In this document: positions 36,152 to 52,542 of the stretch, one piece after another | How the letters are laid out: every line of letters begins with the position of its first letter | How positions within the stretch are numbered: the first letter of the stretch is position 1 | Assembly: GCF_003319115.1 (NCBI RefSeq) | Contig: NZ_QOHF01000010.1 | Span: 62,001-126,000, forward strand | Length of the DNA stretch: 64,000 bases | Origin: Geodermatophilus sp. TF02-6 | GTDB lineage: Bacteria > Actinomycetota > Actinomycetes > Mycobacteriales > Geodermatophilaceae | Direction: 5' to 3' | Notes under the pieces: generated by a model | What the model saw: the letters and a program-made list of their open reading frames with translations, nothing else | Told to the model about the DNA's origin: nothing | Database searches by the model: none | Translations under genes and position numbers: made by a program

Positions 36152-37240
36152 TCAGGCGATGGACCGCACGTTGGACAGGTCGGCGGCCGGCTGGTTGTTC
36201 GCCGCGGCGTCGGTGTCGACGATGGCACGCAGGAACAGGCCGCCCTGCAGCTTCACCAGCCGGGACGCCAGCGTGGTGACGTAGCGGACGCCCACCCGCG
36301 GGTCGAGCAGGGTGCGCGGCGAGACGTCCAACGCCGCCTGCTTGACCTTCGCGGCGAGCTCGGCGGCGCTGGGCTGGTAGAGCCAGGCCGGGCCGGACGG
36401 GCCCTGCGGACCCTGTACACCGGGCAGTCCGACCGGGCCGGCGGGACCGGCCGGGCCCTGCACACCCTGCGGCCCCTGGAGGCCGCGGACGCCGGGCTCG
36501 CCCCGCTCACCGAGCTCGCCCTGCTCGCCCTGGAGGCCGCGCGGGCCCTTCTCACCGGCCTCGCCGGTCTCGCCGATCACACCGCGCGGACCCTGGGCGC
36601 CGGGCAGGCCCTGCGCGCCCTGGGGCCCCTGCTCGCCGACCGGACCCTGCTCGCCGACCGGACCCTGCGGACCCCGCTCGCCGGCCAGCCCGGGCAGGCC
36701 CTGCGGCCCCTGCTCGCCGGGCCGACCGGTGGAGCCGGGGAGCCCGCGCTCGCCCTGCGGACCGGTCTCGCCCTCGGGGCCCTGCTCGCCCCGCGGACCC
36801 TGCTCGCCCCGCGGACCCTGCTCGCCCCGAAGACCGACCGCGCCCCTGGGGCCGCGCTCGCCCACGGGGCCCACCGGGCCGACCGGGCCCTTGTCGCCGC
36901 GCTCGCCCACCGGGCCGACCGGGCCGACCGCGCCCCTGGGGCCGCGCTCGCCCACCGGGCCGACCGGACCGACCGGGCCGGTCGGGCCCTTGTCGCCACG
37001 CTCGCCCACGGGGCCCACCGGGCCGACCGGCCCGACCGGGCCCTTGTCGCCGCGCTCGCCCGCGGGACCGACCGGGCCGACCGGGCCCTTGGGTCCGCGG
37101 TCGCCCCGCTCGCCTGCGGGGCCGACCGGGCCGGTCGGGCCCTTGGGTCCGCGGTCGCCCCGCTCGACGGTCACCGCGACCGTCGCGGTGGTCTCGGTGT
37201 CGTTCGTGGTCTCGGTGTTCGTGGTGTTCGACTGCGCCAT
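36152..37240 (-). CDS. Collagen-like triple-helix repeat protein
   Basis: 362 residues. Residues 1-27 are a Thr/Asn-rich leader ([20 protein letters not shown]), 28-284 are about 85 uninterrupted Gly-X-Y triplets rich in [18 protein letters not shown] and GLPG, and 285-362 are a non-collagen domain ([40 protein letters not shown]). Gly-X-Y chains trimerise as a triple helix; the C-terminal domain could be the trimer seed. No signal peptide or anchor is evident, unusual for a bacterial collagen. Codon repetition makes the DNA strongly repetitive, so the triplet number may vary between strains. Confidence 0.9.
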
Positions 37241-37774
37241 CGTCGGAACTGGCCTCTCGTCGTGGCGGGCGGCAGCACGGGGGCGGCCTCCCGCGATCAG
37301 CGTCCGTCTCCGGCCCTCCGAGGACCGGGACCCATGCCGGCACAGCCGGCGTCGGACGTGCCGGCTCACGGGCCGGACCCCCTCTACGGTGCCCTCTCGC
37401 TAGCCGTAGCAAGCGGCCGGCCAGCAGTGAGCCCGCTCACAGGGACGTCCGGCGGGGCCCGTGATCCGACCGGGACCGCCTGGGTCGGAGGGGAGCGCCG
37501 ACGCCAACCCGTTCCCTGGTCCGCCGTCGTGACCAGCCGCTACGGAACGGGATCCCCTCGGACACCTGCGGCTGGGAGCGGACCGGACGGCCACCCGGCG
37601 CCCACGGACGCCGCCCGGTCCCGGTCGACCGCTCTCGGGTGGTCGGCGGGCGTGTCGTCACTGCGTGCCTGTCGTTCGTGCGCTCGAGACCGTGGCGCCC
37701 AACCGGTCGCGCCAGCCGGGTGAGCCCTCCCGGTGCACCTCGAGTGGCCGGCGGGTGCGGCGCCGGCGGCGGAC
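37241..37774. other. Intergenic region upstream of the collagen-like gene
   Basis: About 530 bases between the collagen-like gene and the crotonase, both on the minus strand. It must hold the collagen gene's promoter. Frames across it are shadows; I see no clear operator, hairpin or small gene. Confidence 0.45.
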
Positions 37775-39890: not shown

Positions 39891-42800
39891 ATGAGCGCTC
39901 CGGACCTGCGGCCGACCGACGCCAGCGCCCGGCCGGCCGTGGCGATCCAGGCGACGACGACGCCGGTGCTCAGCTACGCGCTGGCGCACAACCGGGTGCC
40001 GCTGGTCTCCCGGCTGGCGTTCACCAACCACGGCGGACCGGTCCGGGGCGCCACGGTGCGCCTCGGCGTCCGCGACACGGAGGGCCCGATCGGCAGCCCG
40101 GTCGAGCTGACGGTCGACCTCGACGCCGGGCAGACGACGGTGCGCAGCGACGTCGGCCTGGTCGTGGACCCGGCGGCGGTGCTGCAGATCGAGGAGCAGC
40201 GGCCCGGCTCGATCGAGATCGACCTGCTGGTCGACGGCGAGGACGTCGGCGGCACCGCCGTCCCGGTGCAGGTGCTGGCCGCCAACCAGTGGCTGGCCGC
40301 GCCGGTCCCGCTCGCGCTGGAGGTGCTCGCCGCGCACGTGCTGCCCCACCACCCGTCGATCGGGGCGCTGGTCGACGAGGTCAGCACCCTGCTCGGAGAG
40401 CGGACCGGCAGCGCGGCGGTGCAGGGCCACCGGTCCGGCCCGGAGCGGGTCGACGAGATCGTCGCCGCGGTGTGCGAGGCGGTGCGCCGTCGCCGGATCC
40501 GCGCCACCGAGCCGCAGGCCGGCTGGGCCGACGTCGGGCAGCGGGTGCGCACCCCCGGCGACGTCCTCGACGGGCGGGTCGGCACCTGCCTGGACACCGC
40601 GGTCACCCTGGCCGCGGCGCTGGAGCGGGCCGGCGTCCGGCCGCTGCTGTGGCTGACCGAGGGAGCCGGCGGGACGGGGGCGACAGGACACGCCTTCTGC
40701 GGCTACTGGCGCGAGGAGCGCGGCGCGGAGAGCGCCGCCACCACCGACGTCGCGCCGCTGGTCGACCTGGTCGACCGGGGCTCGATCCGGCTGGTCGAGA
40801 CCACGCTGCTCACCACCCGGGGCTCGACCGGGGCCGACCTGCACGGGGCCGCCCGCACCGCCTGGCTGGCCGGCGACCTCGACCGGGTCCTCGGCGTCAC
40901 CGACGTCCACCGCGCGCGGCGCGACGGCATCGTGCCGCTGCCGGCCCGCACCCGCGGGCGGGACGGCGCGGTGCAGGTGGTCGAGTACGACCCGGCGGTG
41001 CACAGCGTCGCCGCCGGCCCGGTGCAGCGGACGCCGACCCCGGCACCCGAGGATCCCGGGACCCCGGCCCGCGTGCAGCGGTGGAAGGCCGACCTGCTCG
41101 ACCTCTCCCTGCGCAACCGGCTGATCGACTTCACCGAGCGCGCCGGCCTGCCGCTGGCCGTCCCGCCTCCGCACCTGGCCGCGCTCGAGGACCTGCTGCG
41201 CACCGGCACCGCCGTCTCCCTCCTGCCCAGCGACCGCATCGCCGCCGTCCACCGCGAGCGGGGCGTGCGGTCGGCCGCCGAGCTGCCCGCCGAGGCCCTC
41301 CTCGACCGCGGGACGGTGCACGCCGACGTCACCGAGGGCGGCTACCTGCCCCGGCTGCGCACGCTGGCGCACCGGGCCAGGACCGTGCTCGAGGAGACCG
41401 GCGCCAACGCCCTGCACCTGGCGCTGGGCAGCCTGTTCTGGGAGCTCGACGGCCGGCCGCTGCGCTCGCCGCTGGTGCTGCTGCCGGTCGTCCTCACCCC
41501 CAGCAGCCGCACCGGCGTCTACCGGCTCACCCTCGACGACACCGTCACCGGCACGCCCAACCACTGCCTGCTGGAGAAGCTGCGCCAGGTGCACGGCCTC
41601 ACCGTGCCCGGGCTCACCGGGCCCGCCGAGGACGGCCCCGGCACCGACGTCGACCGCGTGCTGCGGCTGGTGCGGGAGGCCCTGGCCGACGCCGGCCTCC
41701 CCCACCGCGTCGAGCCCACCGCCGACCTCGCCGTCCTGCCGTTCGCCGGGTACCGGCTCTGGGAGGACCTCGACGAGCACTGGGCCGACTTCACCGCCAA
41801 CCCGCTGGTGCACCACCTCGTGCACGCACCGACCGAGCCGTTCGCCGACCCCGTACCCGACACCGCGGCCGCCACCGACCTCGACGAGCTCGCCGCACGG
41901 TGCCCGCTACCGGCCGACGCCTACCAGCTGCGCGCGGTCGCCGAGGCCGCGGCGGGACGCACCTTCGTGCTCGAGGGGCCGCCGGGCACCGGCAAGTCGC
42001 AGACCATCACCAACCTGCTCGCCCGGGCGGTCGCCGACGGCAAGCGGGTGCTGTTCGTCGCGCAGAAGCGGGCGGCCCTGGACGTCGTCGCCCGGCGGCT
42101 GGAGGCCGTCGACATGGGCCCGTTCGTGCTCGACCTGCACGGCGAGGGCCGCAGGGCCGCCGCCGTCCGCGCCCGGATCGGGACGGCGCTGGAGCACGCG
42201 GTCGCCGTCGACGGGCACGGTCTGGCGGCGGACGGCGAGGACCTGCGCCGGGCCCGCCGCACCCTGACCCGCTACGCCGACCGGCTGCACGCACGCAACG
42301 CCGCCGGGCTGTCCTACCACTCGGCGCGGACGGCGGTGCTCGCGGTGCGCGACGACGTCCCGCCGCTGCCGCTGCCGCCGGCGTTCGTGGCCGCCGCCTC
42401 CCCGGAGACGGTGACCGCGGTGCGCCGCGCGCTGGCGCTGCTGCCCGACATCGCCGACCTGGTGCGCCCCTCCCCGCGGCACGCGTGGGCGTTCGTCGAC
42501 ACGGCCGAGGTCGACCTGCCGGCCGCGCGGCAGGCCGCGGCCGCCGTCGACCGGGCCGTCCGCGACCTGCCCGCGCAGCCGCACCTGGCCGGCGTGCTGC
42601 GCGAGGTCCGCACCCCGGCCGACCTCGACGCTCTCGCCCACCTGCTCACCGGCCCGGCTCCGACCCTCGACGTGCTCGACGAGGTGCCGACCGCGCGGTG
42701 GGCCGCGGCGACGACGGCGGTGCTCGGGGAGGTCGCCGCGTTCACCGCCGCGGTCCACCCCGGGCTGGAGCGGGCCACCGCCGCAGCGCTGGAGCTGCCG

Positions 42801-45800
42801 CTGGCCGAGCTGTACGTCGCCGCGCAGACCGCGCAGGCCGCCCGCTGGTGGGCCCGCCGGCGGGGGCTGCGCGCCGTTCGGGACCGGCTGCGGCCGGTGC
42901 TGCGGGCCGGGGTCACGGTGCGGCTGGGCGACGTCCCCGAGCTGGTCGCGCAGCTGTGGCGGGTGCAGACCGCGGGGCAGGGCATCGTCGCCCGCGCCTC
43001 GGTGGTCCCCGGCCTGGCGGTGCCGGCCGGCTGGAACCCGGTGGCCGATCCCGAGCTGCTCGTCGGCCAGGTCGAGTGGCTGGAGCGGGCCGGCGCCGTC
43101 GCCGACAGCGCCAGCCGGTTCGCCGTCGCGCTGCGCCGCTGGGTCGTCTCCGGCTCCGGCCCGGACGCCTCGGCCGGCGCGGTGGTCGCCCGGCTGCGCG
43201 ACGCGCTCGCCGGGCTGCTGCGGGTGTGCCGCAGCAGCCCGGCCCGGCTGGCCCAGTGGTGCGGGGACGACGGGCTGGTGCTGCGCTGGCAGATGACCCG
43301 CCCGGAGCGCGGGGTGGAGCACACCGGGCTGATGTCACTGCGCCGCTGGGCGGGCTTCGTCGACACCCTCGAGCCGCTGCGCGCGGCCGGCCTGCACGAG
43401 GCCCGGGCGCTGCTGCTCGGCGGCGAGCTGCCCGCCGACGACGCCGTCCGCGCGTTCGAGTCCGGGATGGCGCTGGCCTCGCTGGCCGAGCGCCGAGGCG
43501 CCTCGGATCTGGAGTCGTTCGACGCCGCGGCGCACGAGCAGGCGATCGCCCGGTTCACCGCGGCCGCGAAGGCGGTGCGCGAGCACCTGCGCACGGCGCT
43601 GCCCGCCGCGGTGCTGGCCGCGCGGCCGGTCGACGCTGCCGGCGGCGACCGGGTCGCTGCGCTGCAGCGGGAGCTGGTCGAGTCCCGGCGCGGACCGGGC
43701 GTGCGCGGGCTGCTGGCCCGCCACGGCGACCTGGTCACCGCGGTGACGCCGTGCGTGCTGGCCAGCCCCGAGTCGGTGGCCCGCTTCCTCCCCGCCGAGG
43801 TCGGCCTGTTCGACCTGGTCGTCTTCGACGAGGCCTCGCAGATCCGGGTGGCCGACGCGGTGGGCGCCCTGGGCCGGGCGCGCGCCGCCGTGGTCGTCGG
43901 CGACAGCCGGCAGATGCCGCCGACGTCGCCCACCGAGCCGTCGTCCGGCGCGGCCGAGGACGACGCGGCCGGGCTGGGCACCGCGGTCGAGGACGAGGAG
44001 TCGATCCTCTCCGCGTGCGTGCGGGCGCAGGTGCCCCGGCAGGAGCTGTCGTGGCACTACCGCAGCCAGGACGAGTCGCTCATCGCGTTCAGCAACGCCA
44101 CCTACTACGGCAACCGGCTCTCCTCGTTCCCGGCCCCGACCGCCGGCCGCCCGACGGCGGGCGTCGACGGCCGCGGCATCTCGCTGGTGCGGGTCGAGGG
44201 CACCTTCCACCGGACCGGCGCCGGGCGGCTGTTGCGCACCAACCCGATGGAGGCCAAGGCGGTCGTCGCGGAGGTCCGTCGCCGCTTCGACGCGGTGCCC
44301 GTGGACGCCGCGCCGTCCGCACTGCCGTCGATCGGCGTGGTCACCTTCACCGCGCAGCAGCGGGCCTGCATCGAGGGCCTGCTGCACGACGCCGGCGACG
44401 AGCGGCTGGTCGAGGCGCTGGACCGCACCGACGGCGCGGGGCTGTTCGTCAAGACCGTGGCCGACGTGCAGGGCGACGAGCGCGACGTGGTCCTGCTCTC
44501 CACCGGGTTCAGCGCGGACGACCGCGGTCGCCTGCCACTGCACTTCGGGCCGCTCAACCGGGTGGGCGGGGAGCGTCGGCTCAACGTCGCGGTCACCCGC
44601 GCCCGCCGGCAGGTCGTCGTCTTCTCCTCGTTCGACCCCTCTCAGCTGCGCGCCGAGCAGACCTCCTCGGTGGGCGTGAAGCACCTGCGCGCCTACCTCG
44701 ACCTGGCCGCGCTCGGCAGCGACGCGCTGCCCGGGGACGCCCGACCGGCCGCCGTCCCCGACCCGCACCGGGAGGAGGTCGCGGCGGCGCTGCGCGAGCG
44801 CGGGCTGGTGGTGCGCACCGACGTCGGCCTGTCGCGGTTCCGCCTCGACCTGTCGCTGGCCCGCCCCGACGCTCCGGACACCCCGGTGGTCGCGGTGCTG
44901 CTCGACGGGCCGGCGTGGGCCGCCCGCCGCACGGTCGGCGACCGCGACGGGCTGCCGGTCGAGGTGCTCTCCGGGGGTCTGCGCTGGCCGGCGGTCGAGC
45001 GGGTGTGGCTGCCCGCCTGGCTGTGCGACCGGGAGGCGGTGCTCGACCGGCTGGTCGCCGCCGTCGACGCGGCGCCGGCTCCGGTGCCGGTCCTCGCGGC
45101 GGCGGTCGAGGAGCCGGTGCTCGCCGCGCCGCCGGTCCCCGCCCCCGCCGAGCCGCCGGCCGCCGAGGTCCGGGTCGCCGTTCCGCTGCGGGCCGCGGCG
45201 CCTGCCGTGGTCGAGGCCCCGGTCGCGCCGGCGCCTGAGCCTGCGCGGCGGCCGTCGAGGAGGCGGGCGCCCGCACCCGCGCTGGACGGCGAGCGGCCGT
45301 TCGTGCCGTGGACGCCGAAGCCCGCCGGCGACCGCACGGTGCTCGACTCGCTCGCCGACCCGCGGGCCGCCCGGGCGGTCCGGCGGGTGGTGGCCGCCGG
45401 GCTCCGGGCGGAGGGGCCGGTGCACGCGGACCGGCTGGTCCGGCTGGCCGCCGGCGCCTTCGGCCTGTCCCGGGTCGGCGGGGCCCGCCGCGACGCGCTG
45501 CTGGGGCTGCTGCCCCCGGCCACCGTCGACGGCGCGTTCGTCTGGCCGGCGTCGCTGGACCGCGCGACCTGGACCGGCTTCCGCCGGCAGGCGGCGAGCG
45601 CCGAGCGGCCGCTGGAGCACGTCGCGCCCGAGGAGGTCGGCAACGCGATGGCGGCGGTGTGCCGGGCCGGTGGCGCGCTGGCCGCGGACGAGCTGTTCCT
45701 GCGGACGGCGGAGGTGTTCGGCCACCGCCGCCGGACGCCGTCCCTCACGCCGCTGCTGGAGGCCGCGCTCACCCGCGCGCTCGAGGCCGGCCGGCTCGTG

Positions 45801-45833
45801 CCCCGGGCCGACGGCTCGCTCACCCTCCCGTGA
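39891..45833 (+). CDS. Giant DUF4011-type SF1 helicase with Vsr-like nuclease region and DUF3320-like C-terminus
   Basis: 1,980 residues. Order: beta-rich N-terminus; a transglutaminase-like segment near 225-270 (GTCLDTAVTLAAALERAGVR, then GHAFCGYW); DUF4011 signature near 398 (RWKADLLDLSLRNRLIDF); helicase core with Walker A LEGPPGTGKSQTITNLLA (near 695), Walker B DLVVFDEASQIRVADAVGAL (near 1307), GDSRQMPPTS, SWHYRSQDESLIAFSNATYY (near 1385), ADVQGDERDVVLLSTGF (near 1525) and motif VI LNVAVTRARRQVVVFSSF (near 1562); a Vsr/DUF559-like region near 1626-1716; Pro/Ala linker; a DUF3320-like end from about 1803. Large proteins of this architecture are linked to phage defence (Hhe-like). ATG preceded by AGGAGCGC. 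Confidence 0.88.
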   Translation: MSAPDLRPTDASARPAVAIQATTTPVLSYALAHNRVPLVSRLAFTNHGGPVRGATVRLGVRDTEGPIGSPVELTVDLDAGQTTVRSDVGLVVDPAAVLQIEEQRPGSIEIDLLVDGEDVGGTAVPVQVLAANQWLAAPVPLALEVLAAHVLPHHPSIGALVDEVSTLLGERTGSAAVQGHRSGPERVDEIVAAVCEAVRRRRIRATEPQAGWADVGQRVRTPGDVLDGRVGTCLDTAVTLAAALERAGVRPLLWLTEGAGGTGATGHAFCGYWREERGAESAATTDVAPLVDLVDRGSIRLVETTLLTTRGSTGADLHGAARTAWLAGDLDRVLGVTDVHRARRDGIVPLPARTRGRDGAVQVVEYDPAVHSVAAGPVQRTPTPAPEDPGTPARVQRWKADLLDLSLRNRLIDFTERAGLPLAVPPPHLAALEDLLRTGTAVSLLPSDRIAAVHRERGVRSAAELPAEALLDRGTVHADVTEGGYLPRLRTLAHRARTVLEETGANALHLALGSLFWELDGRPLRSPLVLLPVVLTPSSRTGVYRLTLDDTVTGTPNHCLLEKLRQVHGLTVPGLTGPAEDGPGTDVDRVLRLVREALADAGLPHRVEPTADLAVLPFAGYRLWEDLDEHWADFTANPLVHHLVHAPTEPFADPVPDTAAATDLDELAARCPLPADAYQLRAVAEAAAGRTFVLEGPPGTGKSQTITNLLARAVADGKRVLFVAQKRAALDVVARRLEAVDMGPFVLDLHGEGRRAAAVRARIGTALEHAVAVDGHGLAADGEDLRRARRTLTRYADRLHARNAAGLSYHSARTAVLAVRDDVPPLPLPPAFVAAASPETVTAVRRALALLPDIADLVRPSPRHAWAFVDTAEVDLPAARQAAAAVDRAVRDLPAQPHLAGVLREVRTPADLDALAHLLTGPAPTLDVLDEVPTARWAAATTAVLGEVAAFTAAVHPGLERATAAALELPLAELYVAAQTAQAARWWARRRGLRAVRDRLRPVLRAGVTVRLGDVPELVAQLWRVQTAGQGIVARASVVPGLAVPAGWNPVADPELLVGQVEWLERAGAVADSASRFAVALRRWVVSGSGPDASAGAVVARLRDALAGLLRVCRSSPARLAQWCGDDGLVLRWQMTRPERGVEHTGLMSLRRWAGFVDTLEPLRAAGLHEARALLLGGELPADDAVRAFESGMALASLAERRGASDLESFDAAAHEQAIARFTAAAKAVREHLRTALPAAVLAARPVDAAGGDRVAALQRELVESRRGPGVRGLLARHGDLVTAVTPCVLASPESVARFLPAEVGLFDLVVFDEASQIRVADAVGALGRARAAVVVGDSRQMPPTSPTEPSSGAAEDDAAGLGTAVEDEESILSACVRAQVPRQELSWHYRSQDESLIAFSNATYYGNRLSSFPAPTAGRPTAGVDGRGISLVRVEGTFHRTGAGRLLRTNPMEAKAVVAEVRRRFDAVPVDAAPSALPSIGVVTFTAQQRACIEGLLHDAGDERLVEALDRTDGAGLFVKTVADVQGDERDVVLLSTGFSADDRGRLPLHFGPLNRVGGERRLNVAVTRARRQVVVFSSFDPSQLRAEQTSSVGVKHLRAYLDLAALGSDALPGDARPAAVPDPHREEVAAALRERGLVVRTDVGLSRFRLDLSLARPDAPDTPVVAVLLDGPAWAARRTVGDRDGLPVEVLSGGLRWPAVERVWLPAWLCDREAVLDRLVAAVDAAPAPVPVLAAAVEEPVLAAPPVPAPAEPPAAEVRVAVPLRAAAPAVVEAPVAPAPEPARRPSRRRAPAPALDGERPFVPWTPKPAGDRTVLDSLADPRAARAVRRVVAAGLRAEGPVHADRLVRLAAGAFGLSRVGGARRDALLGLLPPATVDGAFVWPASLDRATWTGFRRQAASAERPLEHVAPEEVGNAMAAVCRAGGALAADELFLRTAEVFGHRRRTPSLTPLLEAALTRALEAGRLVPRADGSLTLP

Positions 45834-45866: not shown

Positions 45867-46262
45867 TCAGTCCGGCGTCAGGAAGGTGCAGGTGGGTCCG
45901 TTCGCCCGGGCCAGGCGCCGGTCCAGCGTCACCACGGGGACGTCCAGCTCCTCGGCCAGGGCGACGTAGGCGGCGTCGTAGGCGGTCACGGTCGGGTGCA
46001 GCTCCCAGACCCGCTCCGCGAACGGCTCGAAGCCGAACACCGCCACCCGCAGCTGCGCGAGGTCGTGGTGGGCCAGCGCCGCCACGTCACGGGTGAGGTG
46101 CCCGGCCATGACGTTGCGTCGCAGCGAGTTGGAGACCTCGACGAAGAGGTGGGCCGGAGCGGCCAGGGGCTGTCCTTCCATCGCTTCCCGGGCCCAGTCG
46201 CCCTCCGGTCCGTCGTTGACGAGGGCCGCGACGACGGCGGAGGAGTCCACGACGAGCGTCAC
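45867..46262 (-). CDS. PIN-domain toxin, VapC type
   Basis: 131 residues. PIN-fold acidic residues: VVDSSAVVAALVNDGPEGDW, FVEVSNSLRRNVMAG (Glu), TAYDAAYVALAEELDVPVVT (Asp) and LDRRLARANGP. A Mg2+-dependent RNase held inactive by its antitoxin. GTG 46262 overlaps the antitoxin stop by four bases, the usual coupling. Confidence 0.92.
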   Translation of the reverse strand: MTLVVDSSAVVAALVNDGPEGDWAREAMEGQPLAAPAHLFVEVSNSLRRNVMAGHLTRDVAALAHHDLAQLRVAVFGFEPFAERVWELHPTVTAYDAAYVALAEELDVPVVTLDRRLARANGPTCTFLTPD

Positions 46263-46495
46263 GCTCGATCGGCGTCCTTCGCCTCCAGGATGGCCTCGAC
46301 CGGCACCCGCGTACCCGTGGCCCGGACGCGGTGCCGGACACGCTCCCAGAACTCGTCGGGGCTGGGTCGTTCGGCCAGGGCGTTCAGTTCGGCCAGGACG
46401 TACTCCTGCAACGACTGCCCGGCCCGCGCAGCCCGCGCCGCGAGCACGTCCCGGGTCTCGTCGGGGACGTTCCGGATGGTCATGGAGACCGGCAT
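46259..46495 (-). CDS. Antitoxin, VapB/FitA-like
   Basis: 78 residues. Ribbon-helix-helix N-terminus VSMTIRNVPDETRDVLAARA followed by ARAGQSLQEYVLAELNALAE, and a toxin-wrapping tail FWERVRHRVRATGTRVPVEA. Neutralises the PIN toxin encoded just downstream and should repress the operon. ATG 46495 or 46483; ribosome site weak. Confidence 0.9.
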   Translation of the reverse strand: MPVSMTIRNVPDETRDVLAARAARAGQSLQEYVLAELNALAERPSPDEFWERVRHRVRATGTRVPVEAILEAKDADRA

Positions 46496-46711: not shown

Positions 46712-47815
46712 GTGGACGAGGCGCTGCACCCCACCGGAGCCGTCGCCGACCTGGCCGCGACGCGCCAGATCGACCTGCTCGACCCCGGCGACCCGGACCG
46801 GATCGGCCCCTACGACCTGCTCTGCCGGCTGCCGCGCGGCGGCCAGGGCGCGGACGTCTTCGTCGGCTCGGCCGGCCCGGACGCCCCCCTGGTCGTCATC
46901 AAGCGGCTGCCCGAGGCCGCGCCGGAGCTGGCCCGGCGCCGGCTGGCCCGCGAGGTCGAGAACGCCGCCCGGGTGAAGAGCCCCCGCGTGGCGCGGATCG
47001 TCGACCAGGACCTGGACGCCGACGCGCCCCACTACGTGCAGGAGTACGTGGCCGGGACGCCGCTGGACGAGTTCCTCGCCCGCCGGTCGGGCGGGCTCAA
47101 CACCGAGGAGCTGCGCCGGGTGGCGATCGGGCTGCTGCGGGCGCTGCGCGACGTGCACGCCGCCGGCGTCGTCCACCGCGACGTCAAGCCGGGCAACATC
47201 GTCATCTCCGGCAGCGACGTCTGCCTGGTCGACTTCGGCATCAGCCGCTACGTCGGGCCCGAGCCGGCACCGGGCACCGCCACCACCGGGCTGACCGTGG
47301 TCGGCACCAAGCTGTTCGCCAGCCCCGAGCAGCTGGCCGGCGCCGCGCTCACCGAGGCCAGCGACGTCTACAGCTGGGGCATGGTCATCGCCTACGCCGC
47401 CGGCGCCGTCCACCCGGTGGACCCCGACGACACCATGTCCGACGCCGACTACTACCTGGCGCTGCGGGCCGGCCGGCTCGATCTCAGGCACGTGCCGCCC
47501 GACCTGCGGAGCAGCGTCACCCAGGCGCTGCGGTTCGCCCCGGACCGGCGTCCCCCGGTGGCCCGGCTGCTCCGCCAGGTCGAGGCCGGGACCCGCTGGC
47601 TCGGCGAGACCTCGCAGGTCCCCGACCCGCGGACGACGGTGCGCGACCTGCTCTCGCCGGAGGCGCTGGCCGAGGCGGCGCGCTACCAGCTGGGCCGGTG
47701 GGAGCGGGCGGTCGCCGACACCCGGTCGGGCTACGCGGCGGCGCTCGCGGCGATGGTGCTGCTGGGCATCGTCGCCGGGCTGCTGCTGGCCGTCGTCTAC
47801 CGCATCGTCGTCTGA
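46712..47815 (+). CDS. Membrane-anchored Ser/Thr protein kinase of the GTPase operon
   Basis: 367 residues. RIGPYDLLCRLPRGGQGADV (Gly loop, degenerate), VVIKRLPEA (Lys), GVVHRDVKPGNIVISG (near 155), LVDFGISRY (near 173), FASPEQLAGAALTEASDVYS (APE-like). After the kinase domain a juxtamembrane helix leads to one C-terminal membrane segment (YAAALAAMVLLGIVAGLLLA). No PASTA or other sensor outside. GTG 46712 with GGGAGG nine bases upstream. First gene of the operon with a 45-residue membrane peptide, the GTPase and its partner. Confidence 0.9.
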   Translation: MDEALHPTGAVADLAATRQIDLLDPGDPDRIGPYDLLCRLPRGGQGADVFVGSAGPDAPLVVIKRLPEAAPELARRRLAREVENAARVKSPRVARIVDQDLDADAPHYVQEYVAGTPLDEFLARRSGGLNTEELRRVAIGLLRALRDVHAAGVVHRDVKPGNIVISGSDVCLVDFGISRYVGPEPAPGTATTGLTVVGTKLFASPEQLAGAALTEASDVYSWGMVIAYAAGAVHPVDPDDTMSDADYYLALRAGRLDLRHVPPDLRSSVTQALRFAPDRRPPVARLLRQVEAGTRWLGETSQVPDPRTTVRDLLSPEALAEAARYQLGRWERAVADTRSGYAAALAAMVLLGIVAGLLLAVVYRIVV

Positions 47816-47870
47816 ACCGTGATCGTGGTCTGAACAGCCGGCTGAACCGTCGGCGCCCCGAGGAGGAACC

Positions 47871-48008
47871 GTGTCCGGGTTGTACGAGCGGGCCCTGGCC
47901 CAGCAGCGCCTCGACGCGCGTCGCCAGCGCTACCGGGAGCGGCGGCGGGTGCTGCTCGCGGTCCTCTGCGCGACCGCCGTGGTCTTCTTCGCCGTCTTCG
48001 CCCGCTGA
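47871..48008 (+). CDS. 45-residue membrane peptide
   Basis: GTG with AGGAGGAACC directly upstream, the best ribosome site in this operon, so it is very likely translated. Reads VSGLYERALAQQRLDARRQR then YRERRRVLLAVLCATAVVFF and AVFAR: an Arg-rich amphipathic helix followed by one membrane helix. Ends four bases before the GTPase start. May tether the GTPase or kinase to the membrane; that is inference. Confidence 0.8.
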   Translation: MSGLYERALAQQRLDARRQRYRERRRVLLAVLCATAVVFFAVFAR

Positions 48009-48012
48009 GCCC

Positions 48013-49176
48013 GTGCGCGTCTGCCCCCGCTGCCTGGAGCCCCTGGACGCGCCGGTGTGGCGCGACGCCACCGGCGCGCCGCGGCGCCCGCCGGCCGAGC
48101 GGCGCAGCCGCTGGCAGCGCTGGCTCGACCCGCTGCGGGGCGAGCCGCTGCCCCCGCCCACGCTCAAGGACGCCGCCGGTGCCGCCGCGGCGAACGTCGG
48201 CCCCACCTGCCCGCGCGGGCACCGGCTGCCGCCGTCGTTCCTCGACCGGCCGACGATCGTCGTCGGCCTGGTGGGGCTGACCGGCGCGTCGAAGAGCACC
48301 TACCTCACCGTGCTCGTCGACCAGCTGCACGAGGGGGCGCTGGCCCCGCTCGGCGTCTCGGTGGAGATGGACGAGGACAGCGCGGCCCGCTTCGAGGACG
48401 CCCGCTACCGGCTGCTGGTCGCGCGCCAGCAGCTGCCGCTGACCCCGCCGCTGCTGGGCGAGGGCAGCTCGCCGGAGCCGTTCTCGCTGGTGCTGCGCGG
48501 CCCGGGCCGCGGCGGGGCCGAGCGCTCGGTCAACCTGGTCTTCTTCGACGCCTCCGGCGAGCAGCTCTACCGCAGCGAGGACATGGGCCGCTACGGGCGC
48601 TTCCTGTACGCCGCGACCGCGTTCCTGGTGATGCTGGCCCCCGGGGTGTTCCCGGGGCTGCGGCACCTCGCCGACCCGGGCGAGGAGTCCCTGGGCCTGG
48701 CCCGGCACACCCAGATGGTGGTGAACCTGGCCAACCTGGTGCGCAGCGCCCGGCACCTGCACCCCGACAGCGCCCTGGAGGGGGTGTCGACCGCCGTCGT
48801 CCTCACCAAGGCGGACAAGCTGCGTGCGGTGGCGGACTTCCCGGCCGACACCCTGGGCGACCCCGACCTCGCCGCCGTGCCGCTGGCGCACCGGTTCGAG
48901 GACGTGCACCGCACCAGCTCCCGGCTGGTGGACTTCCTGGAGGCCGAGGGCGGGTCGAACCTGCTCACCACGGCGCTGCACCGGCTGCCGCGGCCCACCG
49001 TGCACGCGGTCTCGGCCACCGGCGCGGACGCCCGGGACGGCGGCTACCCGCGGATCGCCCCGGCCGGCTGCCTCGACCCGCTGCTGGTGCTGCTGGCCCG
49101 CGCCGGGTTCCTCCCCGACGACGGGCTGGACGTCGACGAGCACGGCGCCGGGCTGTCCCGCGAGTGGTCGGGATGA
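48013..49176 (+). CDS. Zinc-ribbon P-loop GTPase (DO-GTPase2-like)
   Basis: 387 residues. Residues 1-75 hold two metal-knuckle pairs: VCPRCLEP and later TCPRGHRLPPSF. G domain: P-loop GLVGLTGASKSTYLTVLVD (near 95, with S-K-S in place of G-K-S/T), G3-like LVFFDASGEQLYRSEDMGRY, and G4 VVLTKADKLRAVADF in place of NKxD; the C-terminal VHAVSATGADARDGGYPRIA would be G5. Unlike translation GTPases and resembling the GTPases of actinobacterial NTP-dependent conflict systems. GTG four bases after the membrane peptide; stop overlaps the next ATG (ATGA). Confidence 0.82.
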   Translation: MRVCPRCLEPLDAPVWRDATGAPRRPPAERRSRWQRWLDPLRGEPLPPPTLKDAAGAAAANVGPTCPRGHRLPPSFLDRPTIVVGLVGLTGASKSTYLTVLVDQLHEGALAPLGVSVEMDEDSAARFEDARYRLLVARQQLPLTPPLLGEGSSPEPFSLVLRGPGRGGAERSVNLVFFDASGEQLYRSEDMGRYGRFLYAATAFLVMLAPGVFPGLRHLADPGEESLGLARHTQMVVNLANLVRSARHLHPDSALEGVSTAVVLTKADKLRAVADFPADTLGDPDLAAVPLAHRFEDVHRTSSRLVDFLEAEGGSNLLTTALHRLPRPTVHAVSATGADARDGGYPRIAPAGCLDPLLVLLARAGFLPDDGLDVDEHGAGLSREWSG

Positions 49177-50846
49177 GCGGCCGGGCCTGCCCGCAGGCGC
49201 TCTACACCTCGGCCGCCCGCACCCTGGAGGGCCCGGGGTTCGGCGTCCTCGCCCGGTCCGCGGACTGGCCGGCCGAGGTCGGGCGCAGCCGCGCGGCGCT
49301 CGGCGCGCTGGTCGGCTTCCGGCCGGAGGACGGCGAGGCCTACGGGTTTCTGCACCGCGGCGACGGGCGGGTGCTCTACCGCAAGGTCGCCGCCCGCGCC
49401 GACGGCTTCGGCCGGCCCGGCAACTACCTCGTGCACCTGCTGTGGGACGGCAGCGGCCGGCTCGGGGTCCGCGAGCTGCTGCAGCTGCGCCGCACCGGCC
49501 GGCTGCTCGCAGCGCTGCCCGAGGACTGCTTCCCCACCGCCGATCTCACGCCGCTGCGGGTGCCGCTCGCCGACCGCACCGTGCCCGCGCTGACCGCCGA
49601 GGACGTCGACGCCCTCACCCCGCTGCTGGCCGGGGTGCTGGCCGCGCTCGCCGCCGACCGCGGGACCTGCCCGCTGCCACGCCGGACGCCCTCGGGCCGG
49701 GAGGTGGCCGACGTCGTCTTCGCCGTGCTGCCCCGGGCGCTGACCGCCGCCGTCTCGCTGCACGCCGGCCCCCGGGCGGACGACGGCGACACCGCGCCGG
49801 TCACCGTCGAGCTGGCCGCCGCAGAGCCGGGCACCGCACCCCCGCGGGCCCCGGCCGACACCGAGCGCGCCCGCACGCTGCTCGAGGCCGTCTGCAAGGC
49901 CGAGCTGCCGCCGGACGACGTGGCCGACCTGCGCCGGCTGGACGCCTGGCTGTTCGCGGACGCCTGGGCCGAGCGGGACGCCGCCGCGCTGACCGCCGAC
50001 CAGCTGGCCTGCGTGCTGGAGTCCCCCGCCGCGCCCGGCTGGCTGGCCCGCGGGCGCAACACCGCCGCCGCGCTGGACGCGGCCGAGGGCAGCCCGCTGG
50101 TCGAGGCGTCGCTGCGGGCGGCGGTCGAGCGGGAGCCCGCGGCCGCCGAGCTGGTCCGCACCGAGGTGGTGGCGGCGCTGCTCGACGAGGTGTTCGACGG
50201 CGCGGCCGGCCCGGCCGGGCTCGCCGTCGGGCTGGCCGGCGTGACCCAGGGCGACCTGTGCCGGGCCGTCGCCGACCAGGTGTCCCGCGGCCGGCGGGTG
50301 GCCCGGCTGGACCGCGCGACCGGCCTGCTGGTCGAGCAGGCGCTGAGCCTGGGCGTCGACCTGCCGCTGCTGCGGCTGACCGGCGACCACTGGCAGCTGG
50401 CGCTGCTGGCCACCCGGCGCCGGGTGGTCGGCGACGCGCTGGCCGACCAGTGGCGGCGGGCCGGCGCCGAGCAGTGGGACGACGAGCGGCGGGCGCTGCT
50501 GGGCAACCTGCTCGTCGCCGACGCCGGCTGGCTGGCCCGGCTGGACGGCGCCGTCCCGACGTCGTGCCTGCCGCCGGTGCTGCGGTGGGCGGCGCTGCGG
50601 TTGGACGCCGCCGGGGTGGAGCAGCTCGCCGTCGCGGTGGCGACCGGGGTGGGCGCCGGGCTGGGCTGGGCGCTGCGCGAGGTGCTCTTCGGCGCGCAGC
50701 TGCCCGCGGCCGACGCCGGCGGCGTCCTGGGCCGGCAGCTGGAGCTGCTGCTGGTCGACGACGGCTGGCCGCGGGAGCTGGCCGAGTCGCTCGCCCGCGG
50801 CTCCGAGGGCGGGGACGGCCCGCGCCGCCGCCGGTGGCGCGGGTGA
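49173..50846 (+). CDS. GTPase-associated protein, GAP1-like
   Basis: 557 residues. N-terminal block CPQALYTSAARTLEGPGFGV, AYGFLHRGDGRVLYRKVAAR and GRPGNYLVHLLWDGSGRL matches the GAP1 N-terminal domain I remember as the constant partner of DO-GTPases. The remainder is helical, Ala/Leu-rich repeats (WLARGRNTAAALDAAEGSPL, LCRAVADQVSRGRRVARLDR) likely forming a solenoid. No catalytic motif is visible. Four-base overlap with the GTPase gene implies equimolar complex formation. Confidence 0.75.
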   Translation: MSGRACPQALYTSAARTLEGPGFGVLARSADWPAEVGRSRAALGALVGFRPEDGEAYGFLHRGDGRVLYRKVAARADGFGRPGNYLVHLLWDGSGRLGVRELLQLRRTGRLLAALPEDCFPTADLTPLRVPLADRTVPALTAEDVDALTPLLAGVLAALAADRGTCPLPRRTPSGREVADVVFAVLPRALTAAVSLHAGPRADDGDTAPVTVELAAAEPGTAPPRAPADTERARTLLEAVCKAELPPDDVADLRRLDAWLFADAWAERDAAALTADQLACVLESPAAPGWLARGRNTAAALDAAEGSPLVEASLRAAVEREPAAAELVRTEVVAALLDEVFDGAAGPAGLAVGLAGVTQGDLCRAVADQVSRGRRVARLDRATGLLVEQALSLGVDLPLLRLTGDHWQLALLATRRRVVGDALADQWRRAGAEQWDDERRALLGNLLVADAGWLARLDGAVPTSCLPPVLRWAALRLDAAGVEQLAVAVATGVGAGLGWALREVLFGAQLPAADAGGVLGRQLELLLVDDGWPRELAESLARGSEGGDGPRRRRWRG

Positions 50847-51012: not shown

Positions 51013-52542
51013 GTGCAGCCCGACGACGTCGTCGCCGACCGCTACCGGCTCCGGTCCCTGCTCGCGACCGGGGGCATGGGCCAGGTCTGGCGGGCGGAGG
51101 ACCTGGTGCTGGGCCGTCCCGTCGCGGTCAAGGTGCTGCGCCGCGAGTACACCGGCGACCCGGTGTTCCTGGCCCGCTTCCGCAGCGAGGCCCGGCTGTC
51201 GGCGGGGATCATCCACCCCCACGTCGCCGTCCTGCACGACTACGGGGAGGTCGAGCCCGCCGCGGCCGGCGGCGACCGGCTGGTGTACCTGGTGATGGAG
51301 CTGGTCGAGGGCGAGCCGCTGTCCGACCTGCTGGGCCGCGAGCGCCGGCTCACCGCCGAGCAGACGCTGCACCTGCTCGGCCAGGCCGCCGCCGCGCTGG
51401 CCGCGGCGCACGCGGCCGGGGTGGTGCACCGGGACGTCAAACCGGGCAACCTGCTGGTCACCCCGGACGGCACGCTCAAGATCACCGACTTCGGCATCGC
51501 GTGGTCGGCGGCGAACGCGTCGGTCACCCCGACCGGTCACGTCGTCGGGACGGCGCAGTACCTCGCCCCCGAGCAGGTCCGGGGGGACAGGGCGACCGCG
51601 GCCAGCGACGTCTACTCCTGGGGCACGGTGGCCTACGAGTGCCTGGCCGGTCGCCGCGCCTTCGACGGCGCCGACCCGGTCGCGGTGGCCGTGCAGCGGC
51701 TCCGGCAGGCGCCCGACCCGCTGCCGGCCGACGTCCCGGAGCCGGTCCGGCGGCTGGTCGGCCGGGCCCTCGCCGAGGACCCGGCCGAGCGGATCCCCGA
51801 CGGGGCGGCGCTGCTGGCCGCGGTAGACGACGTCGCCGCCGGGCGCGGGTCCGCGCGGAGCGAGACCCGCGTGCTGCCCGTCGTCCCCGCGCCCACCGGC
51901 ACCCTGCCCACCCACACGCCGCCCACCCACACGCCGCCCACCGTCACCCTGCCCACCCCGCTCCCGGTGGCCGACGACGGCGGGGAGGACGACGTCCCCC
52001 CGCGCCGCCTGCTGCTCGTGCCGCTGACCGCGGCGCTGCTGCTGGTGGTCGCGGTCGCCGGCGGGCTGCTGCTCCTCGGCACCCGCGGCGCTCCCGCGCC
52101 CGCCGCGAGCCCGTCGGCGGCGTCCCCCACCCCGACGTCCCCCGCGCCGTCCCCCACGCCGCCGCCGTCCCCGCCGGTCCTCCGCGTCCGCCTGGCCGCC
52201 GCCGACTACGTCGGCCGGCCGGTGGCCGAGGTGCAGGCCCGGCTGGTGGGGCTGGACCTGCTGGTCACCCTGCGCGGCGTCGAGACCTCCGACGTCCCCG
52301 CCGGTCAGGTGCTCGCGCTGGACACGGTCGGCGAGGTGCCGGTGGGGACGACGGTGACCGTCACCCACGCCGTCGCCCCACCCCCGCCCCCGACCACGCC
52401 ACCCGCGCCGTCCCCGACCGCCACCCCGACCCCGACGGCGCAGCCGGCCACGACCGGCGGGAACGACGCCGGCGACGGGGAGCCCGACCGCAAGCGGGGC
52501 CGCGGGTGGGGCCGCCACCGCGGCGACGGCGGGGACGGCTGA
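51013..52542 (+). CDS. PknB-like Ser/Thr protein kinase with one PASTA domain
   Basis: 509 residues. Kinase: LLATGGMGQVWRAEDLVLGR, VAVKVLRREY (Lys), GVVHRDVKPGNLLVTPDG (near 139), KITDFGIAW (near 159), GTAQYLAPEQVRG. A Thr/Pro juxtamembrane stretch with THTPP repeats, one membrane helix (near 332-356), a Pro/Ser/Ala linker, a single PASTA domain (YVGRPVAEVQARLVGLDLLV, near 394-453) and a basic tail. PASTA kinases sense peptidoglycan fragments and control cell wall growth. Starts 166 bases after the GAP1-like gene, so it may have its own promoter. Confidence 0.92.
   Translation: MQPDDVVADRYRLRSLLATGGMGQVWRAEDLVLGRPVAVKVLRREYTGDPVFLARFRSEARLSAGIIHPHVAVLHDYGEVEPAAAGGDRLVYLVMELVEGEPLSDLLGRERRLTAEQTLHLLGQAAAALAAAHAAGVVHRDVKPGNLLVTPDGTLKITDFGIAWSAANASVTPTGHVVGTAQYLAPEQVRGDRATAASDVYSWGTVAYECLAGRRAFDGADPVAVAVQRLRQAPDPLPADVPEPVRRLVGRALAEDPAERIPDGAALLAAVDDVAAGRGSARSETRVLPVVPAPTGTLPTHTPPTHTPPTVTLPTPLPVADDGGEDDVPPRRLLLVPLTAALLLVVAVAGGLLLLGTRGAPAPAASPSAASPTPTSPAPSPTPPPSPPVLRVRLAAADYVGRPVAEVQARLVGLDLLVTLRGVETSDVPAGQVLALDTVGEVPVGTTVTVTHAVAPPPPPTTPPAPSPTATPTPTAQPATTGGNDAGDGEPDRKRGRGWGRHRGDGGDG

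Follow-up and report, generated by a model that had tools for sequence, protein, structure and literature searches.

A kinase, a single-span micropeptide, a zinc-knuckle DO-GTPase and a GAP1-like protein form a conserved four-gene unit in Geodermatophilus and related actinobacteria

A stretch of 64,000 nucleotides from Geodermatophilus sp. TF02-6 (contig NZ_QOHF01000010.1, positions 62,001 to 126,000; hereafter the window) was analyzed for a group of four adjacent genes encoding a Ser/Thr protein kinase, a membrane micropeptide, a DO-GTPase and a GAP1-like protein. This quartet is read as a stand-alone, membrane-tethered kinase-GTPase switch, a slimmed-down version of GAP1-N2 DO-GTPase systems, and we assign this reading a probability of about 0.5. 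Three points are new: the micropeptide is a constant component of the quartet (24/112 genomes of the family Geodermatophilaceae), the last glycine of the GTPase P-loop is replaced in most readable quartets, and a single-span peptide also lies 3' of the membrane GTPase in most of the examined loci with two GTPases. The quartet consists of the following genes:

46712..47815, + strand: Ser/Thr protein kinase, 367 amino acids (Pfam Pkinase PF00069, 5.4e-28)
47871..48008, + strand: micropeptide of 45 amino acids, Arg-rich, with a single membrane span, a conserved position and a profile of its own
48013..49176, + strand: DO-GTPase2 with N-terminal zinc knuckles (Pfam PF19993, 5.2e-10, 39.8 bits, cut-off 27)
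49173..50846, + strand: GAP1-like protein, 557 amino acids, with a GAP1-N2 domain (Pfam PF20013, 3.6e-6, 27.5 bits, cut-off 24)

The kinase gene is followed by a gap of 55 bases, the peptide gene by a gap of 4 bases, and the GTPase and GAP1 genes overlap by 4 bases. An earlier note on this DNA, made without database searches, had given these coordinates and distances correctly, and its naming of the GTPase and of GAP1 agrees with the two Pfam matches, both of which exceed the curated cut-offs. At the quartet, no promoter-like site and only a single terminator-like site at chance level were found, and no Rfam family matched.

With the GTPase as query, 25 of the 112 family genomes were matched, 24 of them at full length; the remaining match (G088) is a short piece containing stops. 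The order kinase, peptide, GTPase, GAP1 is kept in 24/24 full-length matches, which belong to four genera with differing flanking genes (15 in Geodermatophilus and 2, 6 and 1 in three others), so that the four genes behave as the single unit proposed earlier. Among the loci of named genomes, 12/16 are from Geodermatophilus, with GTPase identities to the window of 77-83%, and the quartet of L039 belongs to the cultured G. obscurus DSM 43162; in one quartet (L036; loci outside the window are numbered with L) GAP1 is truncated. A profile built from 14 peptide sequences found the micropeptide in exactly the same 24 genomes, one copy each and always beside the GTPase, which answers the neighborhood survey suggested in the earlier note: the peptide has the same place in all family quartets. 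An automatic test for a single-span open reading frame (ORF) of 28-75 amino acids adjoining a given gene detected one upstream of the GTPase in 30/32 quartet loci, and in the two others (L048 and L148) the peptide is present as well, but there the GTPase has a late-called start or a broken gene. Upstream of the GTPase in the other examined loci with a single GTPase, the test gave 0/31, and beside other large genes of the examined loci such an ORF occurred at 1/902 gene sides. The linkage of the four genes is beyond chance, because their order is kept in every full-length family match and the control frequency is this low.

A second sample comprised 342 genomes of the Propionibacteriales, the order of L050 (Microlunatus). 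Some GTPase match was obtained in 36 of these genomes, and 8 of the 20 examined carry the four-gene order (L050, L051, L143, L144-L148), with kinases of 313-758 amino acids as called, peptides of 30-52 amino acids and frequent 4-base overlaps; the GTPase gene of L148 is broken and GAP1 of L144 runs off the contig. Profile-profile comparison of the family with L145-L147 gave probabilities of 97.8% for the kinase, 99.7% for the GTPase and 86.9% for GAP1, and the values for L050, L051 and L143 were higher for all three proteins. The GAP1-like protein of L145 matches no Pfam family and its assignment rests on this profile comparison. For the peptide, the comparison of the family with L144-L148 gave 73.9%, with a score of 25.4 against maxima of 23.8 in 100 shuffles of the part preceding the span and 19.0 in 100 full shuffles; kinship of these peptides is thus moderately supported at the sequence level. 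Outside the family the matches are mixed, and the regions examined there were 7 from one search, 20 from 17 of the 33 matching genomes of other families, 18 from 18 of the 36 matching Propionibacteriales genomes (L050 and L051 besides) and 20 from 19 of 62 other genomes. Quartets were found only in the Propionibacteriales sample (6/18 regions plus L050 and L051), in searches which scored just 4 or 5 candidates per genome and may therefore have missed some.

The micropeptide matched no Pfam family at E values up to 1 and no PADLOC model, and its best NCBIfam hit (E 0.042) is at chance level. The ratio of non-synonymous to synonymous substitutions (dN/dS) has a median of 0.48 and a maximum of 5.0 (231 pairs, 22 genes), and third codon positions differ most. 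Since these values are unspectacular, the case for selection on the peptide rests mainly on its conservation and co-occurrence.

The motifs of the quartet kinase are intact in the window (VIK, HRDVKPGN, DFG). One transmembrane (TM) segment is predicted from about residue 339 almost to the C-terminus, i.e. the kinase is tail-anchored and has no outer domain, in accordance with the earlier description of a kinase without an outer sensor. HRD, DFG and the C-terminal TM segment recur in 24/24 family kinases, which are predicted to be active. A match of the quartet kinase to the PADLOC model PD-T4-6 (1.2e-41) was set aside as probably generic kinase similarity, as 35 kinase-type profiles match and the kinase encoded next to the quartet reaches 9.8e-96.

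In the GTPase, the P-loop GLTGASKST and the G4 motif TKAD are present as noted before, together with the Walker B motif DASGE, which contains the conserved Glu of DO-GTPases. Ser93 takes the place of the usual glycine ahead of Lys94; the last P-loop glycine is Ser or Thr in 28/31 readable quartets, and the Lys is retained. Both cysteine-containing pairs previously counted as two zinc knuckles exist (C4PRC7 and C66-H70; in the GTPase alignment C66 and H70 are invariant, C4 and C7 nearly so), but each may be one half of a single ribbon, for which metal binding is predicted. The structure model of the GTPase has a mean pLDDT (predicted local distance difference test) of 79.0. When structures were compared, YcjX (PDB 6nz5; 16% identity) came first in the second ranking, with Rag/Gtr GTPases level with it to within 1 Z; it was not among the best 50 rows of the first ranking, and Foldseek's own ranking placed EF-Tu, atlastin and Ras chains at the top. 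YcjX is a DO-GTPase of psp operons for which a role in membrane stress has been proposed (as cited in the PSP paper).

The GAP1-N2 domain of GAP1 is followed by a helical region, and no further Pfam match was obtained for the window protein, whose structure model has a pLDDT of 86.7. The N-terminal half shows a weak fold similarity to TagF. GAP1 might be a distant regulator of the TagF/longin type, in which case the quartet would resemble type VI secretion, where a threonine-phosphorylation switch likewise combines a membrane kinase with a regulator. No sequence similarity between TagF and GAP1 was detected. We regard this reading as very improbable.

The systems to which the quartet is compared were defined by Kaur et al. 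2020 (PMC7159879), whose text describes DO-GTPase/GAP1 systems as a predicted class of nucleoside triphosphate (NTP)-dependent conflict systems; the quartet fits this class, as had been proposed in the earlier note. A literature search by family names turned up no experimental study of the class. The third GAP1-N2 theme of that paper, which makes up 10% of GAP1-N2 neighborhoods, is built around an active kinase; TM helices, or a zinc ribbon together with a beta-strand-rich domain, are often part of it, and PP2C and vWA proteins usually accompany it. FNIII-repeat proteins, too, are usual in the described systems. The quartet shares with this theme a DO-GTPase2 that bears zinc knuckles at its N-terminus, a GAP1-N2 protein encoded after it, the kinase with a TM segment, predicted here to be active, and the occurrence in actinobacteria. 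As kinase-linked GAP1-N2 systems have already been published, the quartet is a lean variant of GAP1-N2 GTPase-centric systems and not a new class. The earlier suggestion that part of the system may be undescribed is supported for the peptide: the five small-protein terms looked for do not occur in the main text of Kaur et al., figures and supplement being outside this scope.

The quartet could also be an ordinary member of the kinase theme. Its PP2C, vWA and FNIII partners would then be encoded at other sites of the genome, and the peptide would be an incidental membrane protein. The published theme itself speaks for this, since the kinase is sometimes fused to TM segments and the variable components of such systems often contain them (PMC7159879). 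The kinases of the Propionibacteriaceae loci L050 (7584-9860) and L051 (7832-9871) are extended at the N-terminus by a long stretch containing repeat-like segments, which would be cytoplasmic according to the TM prediction and is perhaps the beta-strand-rich domain of the theme; that of L050 has no convincing Pfam match. SpoIIE-type phosphatases belong to the PP2C superfamily, and in one genus such a gene lies next to the quartet kinase in divergent orientation (L060:6532-7605). Apart from this phosphatase, neither PP2C nor vWA nor FNIII (fn3) was matched among the 26 window proteins scanned, flanks included and the rest of the genome being outside the scan, or in the scanned flanks of L049, L050, L051, L053 and L145. 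The quartet further departs from the theme in its constant micropeptide, its mostly replaced P-loop glycine and its lack of detectable GAP1-M and GAP1-C domains. Ordinary membership is thus considered unlikely.

The conserved order, the co-occurrence of the peptide, the profile relationships, the replaced P-loop glycine and the place of YcjX in the structure ranking speak for the reading as a membrane-tethered switch. Some results weigh against it. The P-loop change is not required by the quartet architecture, because L050, L051 and L143 keep a normal P-loop, and in the 24 family members it represents one shared inherited event. In the kinases of L144-L147, HRD is replaced by HLD or HGD and DFG by DFE or DYE, and kinase activity may not be universal across quartets. 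The peptides of the family and of L050/L051/L143 are weakly related at best (17.5%; the score of 17.8 barely exceeds the highest of 60 shuffles, 17.0), and those of L050/L051/L143 and L144-L148 show no kinship by profile comparison (0.2%). Pairwise distances of the four genes do speak for the switch by correlating with r 0.89-0.98 (22 loci), but this is expected for any neighboring, co-inherited genes. GAP1-M and GAP1-C profiles each match 5 of the 19 GAP1 proteins scanned, a number equal to the rows of the HSP70 theme in the set, and were not detected in the GAP1 of the window, which matched only GAP1-N2, although a missed profile match is no proof of absence. Finally, inheritance looks stable within one clade, which is unlike a defense system with fast turnover. 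This last point rests on the genes surrounding the quartet, of which the following are relevant:

39891..45833, + strand: helicase-nuclease with DUF4011, AAA, MTES_1575 and DUF3320 (Pfam), 1980 amino acids, predicted defense gene (PADLOC PDC-S37, 800 bits)
45867..46495, - strand: PIN toxin and FitA-like antitoxin (Pfam), between helicase and quartet
51013..52542, + strand: second Ser/Thr kinase (Pfam), weakly matched by PASTA (19.4 bits, below the cut-off of 23.2)

Of 26 Geodermatophilus genomes, that of the window included, 15 carry the quartet and 11 do not. A homolog of the helicase (query: first 1000 residues) is present in all 11 quartet-free genomes; in 10 of them, a gene of about 430 codons and the shared flanking genes come after the helicase, without the quartet, and the eleventh, which ends at a contig end, was left out of this comparison. 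In a helicase tree, the 14 quartet-positive and 11 negative rows are separated by one change (support 100/99); this tree represents a single flanking gene and not the species, and one positive locus, whose contig starts later, has no helicase in it. A single gain or loss in Geodermatophilus, with retention thereafter, explains this most simply. The quartet marks one clade of the genus, its relatives having an empty site, which indicates stable inheritance and not rapid turnover.

These flanks bear on the possibility, put forward for the class (PMC7159879), that the quartet is an anti-phage or conflict system which works by arresting the cell in a regulated way. The predicted defense helicase and the PIN/FitA pair, which closely precede the quartet in the window, would suit such a function. 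However, both were rejected as system components and neither is specific to the quartet, the helicase being present in 11/11 quartet-free genomes of the genus and the toxin-antitoxin pair being inconstant among quartet loci (both genes called just in the window, L037, L038, L045 and L061, with L041 having only FitA). In addition, no effector domain was found, the GTPase, GAP1 and the peptide match no PADLOC model, and the inheritance pattern described above does not favor defense. We therefore rate this explanation as rather unlikely, if somewhat less so than ordinary membership in the kinase theme.

A housekeeping or developmental signaling module of the Geodermatophilaceae, serving morphogenesis, desiccation or envelope stress and unrelated to conflict, would agree with the retention of the quartet throughout one clade, with YcjX among the closest structures, and with GGDEF-EAL proteins adjoining the quartet in one genus (L053:3848-7385) and a GGDEF protein in its vicinity in a second genus (L049:6064-7626). 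Against such a module, 88/112 family genomes lack a full-length match, and the flanking genes differ by genus, which suggests transfer or rearrangement. It is possible, though less likely than not. Either conflict, following the class proposal, or envelope stress is predicted as the function of the quartet; conflict defense and envelope or developmental signaling are about equally open.

Downstream of the quartet, the window contains an RtcB gene (Pfam) in addition to the second kinase. Of the Geodermatophilus loci with the quartet, 14 extend far enough to be judged, and 13 of these have a counterpart of this kinase, against 0/10 quartet-free stretches. The association is confounded by clade, and no counterpart was seen beside the quartet in other genera. 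Further upstream, at 36152-37369, this actinobacterium encodes a collagen-like repeat protein (Pfam Collagen, 4.4e-44).

Short membrane peptides also occur in loci of the GAP1-N2 HSP70/GrpE theme, which share DO-GTPase2 and GAP1-N2 with the quartet but have two GTPases, one of them membrane-bound, HSP70 and a different gene order. The set comprised 27 loci with two recognized DO-GTPases, 22 of them with an HSP70-like gene by motif. Directly 3' of the membrane GTPase, 19/27 loci have a single-span ORF of 38-72 amino acids (L063, L064, L074, L112, L115, L116, L118, L122-L124, L126, L128, L169, L170, L174, L176, L179, L180 and L183). Four others (L168, L175, L177 and L178) have a similar segment, recognized by eye, at the C-terminus of the GTPase itself; in L125 the downstream ORF failed the TM test, and none was found in L075, L182 and L184. 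In L129, L171 and L172, such a peptide adjoins a membrane protein of GTPase size which is below the profile threshold. In the systems described by Kaur et al. (PMC7159879), the membrane GTPase has a C-terminal TM segment, and the free peptide may be a detached form of it. A gene of another HSP70-bearing locus with a different order (L077:11021-13294) lies just 3' of GAP1 and, by motif only, is kinase-like with a zinc knuckle and multiple TM segments.

A common origin of these peptides and the quartet peptide was considered and is unsupported, since the motif is not clearly shared and profile comparison gave 3.8%. The motif [YFHW][RQL]xxR, chosen by eye from the two-GTPase peptides, is present in 18/23 of them (shuffled mean 1.1; 26 peptides collected minus three with late-called starts, L122, L170 and L179), and in the three quartet peptide sets in 8/22 (reached by 22/2000 shuffles), 0/5 and 0/3. 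The profile score of 14.5 for family against two-GTPase peptides exceeded 60/60 full-column shuffles (maximum 9.7), which are a weak null in which the membrane span is broken up.

For the contacts between the quartet proteins, the kinase substrate, nucleotide handling and the biological role, the reading as a membrane-tethered kinase-GTPase switch leads to the following model. The micropeptide would anchor GTPase and GAP1, a soluble pair, on the inner side of the membrane next to the kinase. With the glycine before the P-loop Lys replaced, the GTPase may bind nucleotide more weakly or more slowly, and in that case the kinase, and not a free cycle of guanosine di- and triphosphate (GDP/GTP), would set the switch. 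The kinase might act on the peptide, the GTPase or GAP1. The conserved N-terminal part of GAP1 would read the GTPase, and its helical part would make contact either with the next component or with the trigger, which would probably be membrane damage or an invading element, in line with the published DO-GTPase proposal. A broader idea, put forward tentatively and with less confidence than the switch itself, is that a hidden class of single-span micropeptides plugs GTPase-GAP1 pairs into the membrane in DO-GTPase systems, and that in the quartet the peptide, a tail-anchored kinase and a GTPase with a crippled P-loop form a membrane checkpoint driven by phosphorylation and not by nucleotide exchange, with no need of phosphatase, vWA or FNIII.

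Multicellular bacteria are predicted to be guarded by DO-GTPase/GAP1 systems. A compact version of only four genes, naturally present or absent at one site in soil bacteria that are named and in culture, provides a tractable test case. The micropeptides, easily missed at about 30 to 72 residues, offer a handle on the contact between GTPase and membrane. A Ras-like GTPase which lacks the P-loop glycine and is yet kept across a family would be an instructive example, possibly of switching by phosphorylation.

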